Assembly: GCA_945876745.1 (NCBI GenBank)
Contig: CAMCPL010000006.1
Location: 1-64,000, forward strand
DNA: 64,000 nt
Source of the DNA: an uncultured Clostridia bacterium
GTDB taxonomy: Bacteria; Bacillota; Clostridia; Oscillospirales; Acutalibacteraceae
Reading direction: 5' to 3'
Part shown: in pieces, positions 17,699 to 20,174 of the stretch
How positions within the stretch are numbered: the stretch's first letter is position 1
Layout: each line of letters begins with the position of its first letter
Notes under the pieces: model-generated
What the model was told of the DNA's origin: nothing
Databases searched by the model: none
The model's input: the letters and a program-made list of their open reading frames with translations, nothing else
Position numbers and translations under genes: made by a program

Positions 17699-17722
17699 AA
17701 TTATCCTCCGGTTAGTTATATT

Positions 17723-17824
17723 GATATATTTTGCCTAAAGGCAAAATTCGATATGGCTTTTCGCCTCGATATATGTTGACTATGTCAACATTCGATATAA
17801 AGCGAAATTTCATTTCGATTTATG
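17723..17824. repeat. 102-bp direct repeat, copy 1 (hairpin array)
   Basis: Same length as the copy at 18336-18437 with 4 mismatches. It contains four short hairpins separated by TCGATAT: ATTTTGCC/GGCAAAAT, GGC/GCC, ATGTTGA/TCAACAT and CGAAAT/ATTTCG. Three of the four mismatches between copies lie in hairpin loops; the fourth lies after the last stem. Confidence 0.85.
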
Positions 17825-17841: not shown

Positions 17842-18207
17842 TTATTTTTGTTCATTTTTATTAGCTTTTGCCGTCGTCACAGACGCAATCAATTTACGAC
17901 GAATTGAACCACAAAAACTCTTTAAGTGTTCATATTGTTCTTTAGGTAATTTTCCTTTTTTATAAACTAATTCTAACCAATATTCTGTTTCTGATGCTTC
18001 TTTCAACGCAATTTCTAACTTGTTTATAAAATCGGCACGACTCTGTGCATATTTCGCTTCATGAATATTGGCACCAATAGACGATGAAGAGCGAAGCAAC
18101 TGATTAATATACGGCGAAATACCCTTTATATCTTCACACACGTCAGAAACAGCAATTGCAAAATCAATTGACATTTCACGCAAAATGTTTTTTTGGTCTG
18201 ACATCAT
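17842..18207 (-). CDS. Four-helix-bundle protein (S23 / IVS-type)
   Basis: A 121-residue all-helical protein of the S23/TIGR02436 family: VSDVCEDIKGISPYINQLLR, then SSSSIGANIHEAKYAQSRAD, then LKEASETEYWLELVYKKG. Relatives are encoded in intervening sequences of 23S rRNA genes in Leptospira and Coxiella, and the Avd accessory protein of diversity-generating retroelements shares the fold. No rRNA gene and no reverse transcriptase is present here. AAGGAGATGAA precedes the double ATG. The gene lies between two 102-bp direct repeats made of hairpins. Molecular function unknown; nucleic-acid binding is likely from the family. Confidence 0.88.
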   Translation of the reverse strand: MMSDQKNILREMSIDFAIAVSDVCEDIKGISPYINQLLRSSSSIGANIHEAKYAQSRADFINKLEIALKEASETEYWLELVYKKGKLPKEQYEHLKSFCGSIRRKLIASVTTAKANKNEQK

Positions 18208-18227
18208 TTCATCTCCTTAATTATCAG

Positions 18228-18437
18228 CATTTATATCTTGCAAAGCTTTGCATATCGAGTGCAACGCACATATCGAATACAAAGTATATATCGAAAATTT
18301 CGTAAGAAATTTATATCGACAAAATTTATTATCTCGATATATTTTGCCCAAAGGCAAAATTCGATATGGCTTTGCGCCTCGATATATGTTGACTATTTCA
18401 ACATTCGATATAAAGCGAAATTTCATTTCGTTTTATG
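18228..18437. repeat. Modular hairpin array including 102-bp repeat copy 2
   Basis: About nine short units joined by a common heptamer. From the left the stems are TGCAAA/TTTGCA, GTGC/GCAC, ATAC/GTAT, AAATTTC/GAAATTT and an unclear AT-rich unit, separated by ATATCGA; then ATTTTGCC/GGCAAAAT, GGC/GCC, ATGTTGA/TCAACAT and CGAAAT/ATTTCG, separated by TCGATAT, the reverse complement. The linker flips near 18325-18335. The right-hand 102 bp (18336-18437) repeat copy 1. The end of the array supplies the last codons and stop of the recombinase gene. Confidence 0.85.
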
Positions 18438-20099
18438 TAATAAGCAGACGGTTTCGACTGTGTTTTCGAAATTCGGAATAAACATATCGGCTTCGTTTCC
18501 TTTATAATATACCGGGAAACGAAATTGTATGCTCTTTAATATCTGACCGTTTTCCAACGGTTCGGGATATATCTCGATTTTCTTTATAAAGCTGTGAAGA
18601 AATTCTTTCTTCTCAAATTCGGTAAATTCATTATATATTATATCAAATAATTCCAAAAATTCAAATATTCGTTTCTGAGAGATTTTTTGTTCCTTTATAG
18701 CCTTGATTTGTGTTTGTATAGTTTCAAGATTTTCGGTTGCCTCTGCAATCTCATCATATAATGAATTTATACGATTTTGCATATCGCAAAATTTTTGCTC
18801 ATAATGCCTGTCGGAACAGTCAAGCCTGTCAATTTGAAAGCCGAGTCGTTCCTTTGCGGCATTAAGCTGTCTTATCTGTGTCATTAAATATGCTTCTTCT
18901 TTTTCATACTTAGATAAATCCACGCTTGCATCTAATTTTTCTTTTATTGCAGAATCAAATTTTGAGTTTTTAACGATATTTCTTATTACTTCCACAACCG
19001 CTTCATTTATCTTTTCCTGATGAATTTGCTTTTTGAAAGTACATTTGTGACCGTCATATTCCAATCTGTGTTTGCAGGCGTAATACCAATAATCTCTGTA
19101 AAAACTTCCGTCTTTTTTGCGTTTGCGGTTGACACTGCCATACAACCCGGCACCGCATATCGGACATTTAATTATACCGGTCAATAAATGCTGATGTTCT
19201 GTACTGTATATTTTTTCATTCTTTATACCTGTCTTTTTTCTCTTATCCTGAGCTAAAAGCCAATCTTCTTCGCTGATAATCGCATCATGAATACCGTCAT
19301 AAATAGGATATTCTTCTTGCTTTACCACGTGATATTCATTACGGCTACCCTGTATTTTTTCTGTTTTTCTTCGCCCGAACGCAATTTTTCCGCAATAAAT
19401 AGGGTTGTCCAACACGAGCTTTACAAAATGTGCTGTGAACGCATCCAAAGTTCCGTTTTGGCGTTTCTTTTTGATATAGCCTTGGCGATTCAGATATTTT
19501 GCAACAGTACCGGCACCCATTGTGGTATGAATGAATTTATCGTAGATAATGCGAATAATTTCTGCCTCATCTTCGGCTATTTTTAACTCGCCGTCAACAA
19601 GTTCATAACCGTATGGGGCAAACCCTCCGTTCCATTTGCCTTCACGAGCCTTCTGCTTTCTGCCTTCCATTGTTTGAACAAGAATATTTTCTCGTTCAAT
19701 TTCCGCAACGGCAGACAGCACCGAAATCATAAGTTTGCCGCTGTCCTTTGAACTGTCAATACCGTCCTCAACGCAGATAAGATTAACCCCGTAATCCTGC
19801 ATCAGTTGTAAAGAATTAAGAACATCGGCTGCGTTTCTGCCAAATCGAGACAATTTGAACACCATCACATATTCTACATTGTCTTTTCCTTCGGATATGT
19901 CGTTAAGCATAGTTTGGAATTCAGGTCTGCCTTCAATATTTTTACCGGACTTACCTTCATCGGAATATTCTCCTGCAATCATAAAATCCTGAAATTCAGC
20001 ATACCTTCTTAGCTTTTCTTTCTGTGCATCAAGACTGAAACCGTCGACCTGCATAGAGGTTGATACACGGGTGTATATATAGCAATTTTTCCTTTTCAT
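18423..20099 (-). CDS. Large serine recombinase (resolvase/invertase, TnpX-type)
   Basis: A 558-residue site-specific recombinase. The N-terminal resolvase domain starts KNCYIYTRVSTSMQVDGFS with the catalytic Ser in RVST, and FKLSRFGRNAADVLNSL is the second active-site region. A recombinase domain with PYGYEL and a zinc ribbon (CPICGAGLYG with a later CKHR) follow, then a long coiled coil at roughly residues 400-490. ATG at 20097-20099 has AAGGAG; the frame is open 19 codons upstream, which is not needed. It is the last gene of a minus-strand group with ParB and small element proteins. The last four codons and the stop lie in the hairpin-array repeat, so the extreme C-terminus may have been altered by that repeat. 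Confidence 0.93.
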   Translation of the reverse strand: MKRKNCYIYTRVSTSMQVDGFSLDAQKEKLRRYAEFQDFMIAGEYSDEGKSGKNIEGRPEFQTMLNDISEGKDNVEYVMVFKLSRFGRNAADVLNSLQLMQDYGVNLICVEDGIDSSKDSGKLMISVLSAVAEIERENILVQTMEGRKQKAREGKWNGGFAPYGYELVDGELKIAEDEAEIIRIIYDKFIHTTMGAGTVAKYLNRQGYIKKKRQNGTLDAFTAHFVKLVLDNPIYCGKIAFGRRKTEKIQGSRNEYHVVKQEEYPIYDGIHDAIISEEDWLLAQDKRKKTGIKNEKIYSTEHQHLLTGIIKCPICGAGLYGSVNRKRKKDGSFYRDYWYYACKHRLEYDGHKCTFKKQIHQEKINEAVVEVIRNIVKNSKFDSAIKEKLDASVDLSKYEKEEAYLMTQIRQLNAAKERLGFQIDRLDCSDRHYEQKFCDMQNRINSLYDEIAEATENLETIQTQIKAIKEQKISQKRIFEFLELFDIIYNEFTEFEKKEFLHSFIKKIEIYPEPLENGQILKSIQFRFPVYYKGNEADMFIPNFENTVETVCLLHKTK

Positions 20100-20174
20100 A
20101 CGATAACTCCTTTCTGATTTGCTTACATTATATTGTCGTCTAAATAAATACTCCAATGTACGGCAGAAGGGGGG

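Follow-up and report, generated by a model that had tools for sequence, protein, structure and literature searches.

Among the described systems closest to the present locus, the REP sequences and BIMEs are recognised by the TnpAREP (RAYT) protein. In this REPtron, single-stranded REP is recognised while iREP is not, and the tag and the protein have co-evolved (PMC8266576, in the part considered here). In the Bordetella phage DGR, a hairpin is needed in the target; the stem sequence is free, the loop fits 5′-GRNA, and with a CTTT loop the activity is near background (the part of PMC3240598 considered here). The same paper describes group IIC introns as lying downstream of terminators and recognising single-stranded DNA hairpins. 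The intervening sequences (IVSs) of 23S rRNA contain an S23 ORF with inverted repeats, and the S23 proteins are described as being without known function (PMC4990558, in the part considered). Finally, DNA mini-hairpins with GNA or GNNA loops on G-C pairs are extraordinarily stable (PMC4686876, likewise in part). Here we compare with these systems an array of small hairpins that lies beside an S23 gene in a 64-kb stretch of DNA (the whole of which is hereafter called the window).

Structure of the array locus in the window

The features of the locus are as follows.

17716..17824, array 1: near-copy of the right half of array 2, 3′ of the S23 gene; one TTGATAT and three TCGATAT linkers (linkers at 17748, 17766 and 17792) and four hairpins
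17842..18207, minus strand: S23 / TIGR02436 / PF05635 four-helix-bundle protein, 121 aa, between arrays 1 and 2
18239..18437, array 2, whole: four ATATCGA and then four TCGATAT linkers, with eight hairpins
18239..18319, left arm of array 2: hairpins at 18240-18251, 18259-18269, 18277-18287 and 18295-18312; ATATCGA linkers starting at 18252, 18270, 18288 and 18313
18320..18333, flip spacer of array 2: CAAAATTTATTATC
18334..18437, right arm of array 2: hairpins at 18341-18360, 18368-18378, 18386-18404 and about 18411-18437; TCGATAT linkers starting at 18334, 18361, 18379 and 18405
18423..20156, minus strand: large serine recombinase (Resolvase, Recombinase, zinc ribbon), a neighbour only

The initial annotation of array 2 had described about nine stem-loops joined by ATATCGA in the left half and by TCGATAT in the right half, with a reversal near the middle. 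The linkers are indeed arranged in this way (four and four, at 18252-18411) and flip at 18320-18333, while eight hairpins were counted instead of nine. Each gap between like linkers in array 2 holds a different hairpin. The description of a constant linker with unrelated stems thus fits the window array; among the arrays of other S23 clades the linker differs, being constant only within a class. Array 1, beyond the S23 gene, had been overlooked; its alignment with 18329-18437 has 103 identical columns of 109.

The words ATATCGA and TCGATAT occur 31 times in the window, against 11.3 expected and a maximum of 21 in 100 shuffles, and 11 of the 31 are within arrays 1 and 2. Folding of the region, which had been proposed as a check, gave for 18200-18460, as RNA of either strand, a fold that beats all of 200 shuffled sequences (z −6.2 and −5.6).

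The gene between the arrays, which had been annotated as encoding a four-helix bundle, is an S23 gene: its product matches PF05635 (2.3e-21; 87.6 bits against a cut-off of 24) and TIGR02436 (6e-25; 76.5 against 33.8). In the AlphaFold monomer model (mean pLDDT 92.9), the protein is predicted to be a four-helix bundle like 2rld and 2gsc, which are the nearest solved structures of the model by Foldseek and are followed by the DGR Avd protein 4dwl. The match of the model to 4dwl, from the Bordetella phage DGR, has a TM score of 0.75-0.80 by query length, E of 0.02-0.07 and 12-13% identity.

A Pfam scan of six proteins around the window array gave S23, the recombinase, ParB, an oxidase and two proteins without a family. 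With its last hairpin, array 2 extends into the 3′ end of the serine recombinase gene; at 18423-18437 the stop codon of this gene lies within that hairpin, as if the array had settled at the gene end. An empty site of the window element was not recovered in a genus search, which aligned about the first 1,000 query bases in 16 relatives and short pieces elsewhere.

Arrays beside other S23 genes

A search for arrays near other S23/TIGR02436 genes had also been proposed. We used a detector that is blind to the linker word and that by design requires near-complementary linkers in the two arms. The set of 164 S23 genes, our own choice among the matches listed rather than all matches, consists of 103 genes of a family sample, 24 of a phylum-wide sample, four of the window's genome, 29 from seven genomes and four from an array scan; three of 167 genes with less than 250 nt upstream were left out. 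An array was detected upstream of 56 of the 164 genes, a proportion that is biased by the seven genomes, picked for TCGATAT arrays, and by the four genes reached via the array scan; the other 108 gave no array by this detector. The controls gave 0/164 for Markov sequences, 0/92 for upstream regions of other genes at the same loci and 1/159 for regions downstream of S23 genes; the other-ORF control is 9/161 when loci fetched for their arrays are included and 0/92 without them. The least biased set is the family sample, whose choice did not depend on arrays: 33 of its 103 genes have an array upstream. In the phylum-wide sample, none of 24 genes has one. Arrays of this kind are thus present beside further S23 genes, and the part of the refutation named in the initial annotation that required their absence does not hold. 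The explanation of the window array as chance AT-rich palindromes was rejected on the word-count shuffles and the Markov and other-gene upstream controls.

Genomes were also searched by word. Among 200 genomes of the same family, 11 contain a pattern of three TCGATAT and 3 contain the reversed pattern. Inspection by eye of the matches listed indicated that three of the 11 (G035, G050 and G077) resemble chance matches or coding repeats; the remaining eight contain hairpin arrays, with many matches each in G174, G073, G064 and G184. In a scan of genome contigs, at least 36 of the 120 stretches listed have two or more strict linker-hairpin-linker units; these 36 are from Clostridia, mostly animal-gut assemblies. 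Among 80 viral-contig loci examined, at least three (L403, L410 and L415) have real arrays.

Linker classes and the S23 tree

The same plan was found upstream of S23 genes with other words: TGAAAT/ATTTCA, ATGAAGC/GCTTCAT, GTGATGC/GCATCAC, GTTATAT/ATATAAC, GCGATAT/ATATCGC and ATGATAT/ATATCAT. The window's genome, which has five S23 genes, contains three classes (ATATCGA at the window gene, ATTTCA at L001 and L002, ATATCAT at L005). In a FastTree tree of 160 of the 164 proteins (126 columns, many weak forks; four short proteins left out), arrays are present in 53 of 77 members of one S23 clade (support 97) and in 1 of 83 proteins outside, and several of that clade's 24 members without a detector call show an array by eye. 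The array family is real and goes with a single S23 clade. The word differs between subclades and tracks the protein tree: 9 changes of class were counted for 51 labelled proteins (3 of 54, with unclassified linkers, were left out), while the minimum in 500 shuffles was 24. Since the array and the gene are adjacent and hence co-inherited, the correspondence by itself is no proof of recognition.

Loops and strandedness of the arrays

Read by eye along the S23 strand, a typical locus consists of a terminator hairpin, about four word-hairpin units, a core, about four hairpin-word′ units (word′ being the word of the second arm), a promoter and the S23 gene. The left end recurs in inverted form within the core: over 51 arrays, the longest complementary match has a mean length of 9.5 bases, compared with 6.0 after swapping cores (largest mean of 200 swaps, 6.7). 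The window departs from this plan in that the S23 gene lies between the arms. The same is seen on contig C67 of G174, with the arms in the other order. Most loops of the window array are not GNA/GNNA, and it has no clear S23 promoter. Several other arrays have outer ends, noted by eye, of the form ...ATATCGACAAAA or TTTTGTCGATAT, and the flip spacer of array 2 may therefore be two outer ends side by side.

Explicit words yielded 784 segments containing 425 distinct hairpins, which were read on the word strand. GNA/GNNA loops account for 229 of the 425 and the reverse type for 2; nearly half are of neither type. The triloops are GNA in 126 hairpins, TNC in 1 and others in 94, and the tetraloops are GNRA in 56, GNYA in 47, TNNC in 1 and others in 69; 31 loops are longer. 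The closing pair is C-G in 354 of the 425.

The loops are strand-specific. In the family sample, loops of the arm that has the TC[AG] word on the coding strand are G..A in 34 cases, T..C in 1 and others in 38, while the opposite arm has 2, 34 and 13, respectively. The labelled arrays of this sample include no TCGATAT class, so that these counts escape the ambiguity of TCG. In the whole set, the numbers are 59, 6 and 53 against 3, 51 and 23 (p 9e-23), with the orientation of the TCGATAT class unreliable: because TCGATAT and ATATCGA both contain TCG, its arms are possibly misoriented. Four of the 56 arrays, having no orientation, were left out of the counts by arm. The least biased samples (33/103 genes; loops 34:1 versus 2:34) carry the same reading of the array as a DNA element. 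The ratio of G.T to A.C mismatches by arm was 17:3 versus 3:10 in a small set (p 0.0007), 20:10 in a larger set (p 0.10) and had p 0.20 in the S23 set.

Terminators, promoters and tRNA genes at the array sites

A terminator (perfect stem of 8 or more) precedes the array in 39 of 56 cases and in 29 of 560 Markov sequences; this strict detector was used because a permissive version was positive in 193 of 280 Markov sequences. In 21 of 56 cases (shuffles, 11/560), the interval between the array and the S23 gene contains a promoter with 10 or more matches out of 12; for 18 of these 21, the start is −2 to +18 bases from the last linker detected. Of 53 array-associated S23 genes, 30 are preceded within 450 bases by a tRNA or tmRNA gene on the same strand, and the other 23 have none there on either strand; the corresponding numbers are 21 of 103 for other S23 genes and 2 of 85 for other ORFs, with one more on the opposite strand only (three array-associated and five other S23 genes with less than 450 nt upstream were left out). 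At L247:930-1275, a tmRNA gene instead of a tRNA gene precedes the array.

Among 18 ATTTCA arrays, 10 have a tRNA gene within 120 bases pointing at the array, and these loci (L375-L391) were hand-picked, so that the share is not a genome-wide rate. At L381, a second tRNA gene lies on the other side, pointing away. An S23 gene is present beside one of the 18 (L386). No tRNA gene was found within 120 bases of any of 64 TCGATAT array pieces, and because of this difference from the ATTTCA arrays the choice of site may be class-specific.

Dispersed copies

Of the 64 distinct TCGATAT array pieces, 6 have an S23 gene within 300 bases; these 6 come from five loci. Among the S23 genes fetched from the array-rich genomes G064, G073 and G184 (3/3, 9/10 and 6/8 of those listed), none is of the TCGATAT class. 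The window's own genome has an S23-less array copy (L375). At L382:795-1447, tandem ATTTCA arrays, two whole and one single-arm by eye, adjoin a tRNA-Leu gene. At L118, one contig has two array copies, one of them beside an S23 gene, which are 97.7% identical over 213 bases and whose left border is sharp and falls at the first word. One intergenic site carries a TGATGTT half-array and a TCGATAT half-array in G073, the TCGATAT half-array only in G356, and neither in G184 and G357. Such presence and absence among sibling genomes would be compatible with gain or with loss, in a direction that these sequences do not distinguish. No target duplication was established at the array sites. From the S23-less dispersed copies and the sibling variation, we infer that the arrays may be mobile.

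Comparison with known systems

Like REP sequences and BIMEs, which the part of PMC8266576 considered here describes as palindromes scattered between genes that carry a short conserved tag and form inverted pairs, the arrays are dispersed, tagged, arranged in inverted pairs and tied to a protein family; the contrast with REP drawn in the initial annotation was therefore too strong. The differences are that the partner is S23 and not an HUH nuclease, that each element has about 2 × 4 different hairpins, that on the active strand the hairpin comes before the word and that the sites adjoin terminators. Membership in REP/RAYT was rejected for the window locus: no HUH (Y1) transposase gene was found among the six Pfam-scanned proteins.

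With DGRs, the arrays share DNA hairpins with free stems and a loop fixed on one strand (GRNA in the DGR target, according to the same part of PMC3240598), and S23 shares the Avd fold as judged from the model. Unlike DGRs, they comprise many hairpins with loops of both the GNA and the GNNA type, and no reverse transcriptase (RT) was found at the locus. Membership was rejected, as the genome's one RT, group II-like by eye, is on contig C9, away from all five S23 genes. Group IIC introns resemble the arrays in their position downstream of terminators and in the recognition, proposed for the arrays, of hairpins in single-stranded DNA; they differ in that no RT was found in the array element. The 23S rRNA IVSs share an S23 ORF with inverted repeats; in contrast, the array is not in rRNA, consists of hairpins and linkers, and often has a promoter beside it. 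The IVS explanation was discarded since an Rfam search of the window at gathering score gave one tRNA but no rRNA. A CRISPR array, already doubted in the initial annotation, was also rejected because the linkers invert and the gaps are hairpins, instead of repeats in one direction with unrelated spacers.

The arrays are judged to be of a new kind because their partner, plan and word classes match no family tested, while their logic is that of REP/RAYT. The array family is apparently undescribed: no prior description of an array/S23 system was seen among the results of searches of open-access full texts, several of which were aimed at the comparison systems.

Possible function of the arrays

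As related S23 genes carry the same array plan, each with its own word, the results suggest that the S23 protein and the array form one undescribed, possibly mobile, DNA system. With moderate confidence, we favour the reading of the array as a palindromic element acting at the DNA level, with the Avd-fold S23 protein as its reader, in a REP/RAYT-like logic lacking the HUH nuclease. The element would have two parts, the four-helix-bundle protein and an array of two inverted arms, each with about four units of a hairpin (typically with a GNA/GNNA loop) and a linker word, read on one strand; the linker class would go with the S23 subclade. An S23 oligomer may recognise the folded single-stranded or cruciform units, and the likeness to Avd suggests, by analogy, that S23 reads DNA hairpins. 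The arrays might be small elements that spread in trans, with the help of an enzyme of the host or another enzyme, to sites beside terminator hairpins, and S23 binding beside the promoter could also regulate S23. We advance more tentatively, and hold to be somewhat doubtful, the broader proposal that proteins of the S23/Avd fold read DNA hairpins having GNA/GNNA loops and that the clade comprises many mutually specific protein-array systems inserting beside terminator hairpins.

The initial annotation had suggested small RNAs or RNase III products. If the array were transcribed, its arms could pair through the linkers into a branched RNA bound by S23, a possibility that fits the strong predicted RNA folds, the presence of Avd in solved DGR ribonucleoproteins and the near-complementarity of the arm linkers in every class, which holds by the design of the detector. 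However, because the loop types are mirrored between the arms, a single RNA would carry the reverse type (TNC/TNNC) in one arm; the GNNA tetraloops show little GNRA preference (56:47), and no Rfam family was found at the window array at gathering score. Since the arms mirror the loop types and the arrays often sit between a terminator and a promoter, action as RNA is less likely than the DNA-level reading, and we consider it improbable. The arrays might instead be ordinary small palindromic elements moved by another enzyme, with S23 as a frequent neighbour or passenger. The scarcity of S23 beside TCGATAT pieces, the lack of TCGATAT-class S23 among the genes fetched from the three array-rich genomes, and the serine recombinase adjoining the window array all fit this explanation; nevertheless, the confinement of arrays to one S23 clade (53/77 versus 1/83) and the tracking of that clade by the linker class make it unlikely.

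An immobile operator or insulator for S23 and the upstream tRNA gene, spread by descent and gene duplication, would account for the promoter starts near the last linker (18/56) and for the upstream tRNA genes and terminators, while it accords poorly with the S23-less arrays, the tandem copies of L382, the sharply bordered pair of L118 and the presence/absence among sibling genomes; its probability appears low. In another scenario, S23, like Avd, would serve a group II-type RT in trans, and array copies would be inserted after terminator hairpins. This recalls the target choice of group IIC introns, and the window's genome does have one RT of group II-like appearance. Nevertheless, the sole RT found sits on another contig and one RT per genome is commonplace, so that we regard retromobility as very improbable.

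In the favoured reading as a DNA-level element, one S23 clade gains a candidate substrate whose natural variants of specificity could be swapped, and the function of S23 would thus become directly testable. If true, it would be a palindromic element system with a partner of non-nuclease fold, located beside terminators including those of tRNA genes. Were the broader hairpin-reader proposal also true, the arrays would be the first substrate for the S23 family and would link the IVSs, the DGR target hairpins and the arrays.

Other observations at S23 loci

Several loci showed further features by eye. At L148:245-335, an S23-like start lies after an array and soon runs into a stop codon, and is probably a pseudogene. 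Four S23 genes of other clades without detected arrays (L169, L171, L177 and L193) have a short word on one side and its reverse complement on the other, for example CAGTGTT / AACACTG. Six loci (L317, L330, L331, L332, L291 and L326) have tRNA-like stretches and terminators upstream of S23, and in these the hairpin arrays are replaced by long complementary purine-rich/pyrimidine-rich stretches. In a genus relative (L357:629-988), an S23 gene lies just beyond the homologue of the 15135-16520 gene, with the word CATGAATTG / AAATCATG. In the window itself, the pyridoxamine-oxidase-like protein of 17219-17698 matches, in NCBIfam, solely nitroimidazole reductase models, with scores far under the cut-offs (51.9 against 260 and 50.9 against 270 bits).
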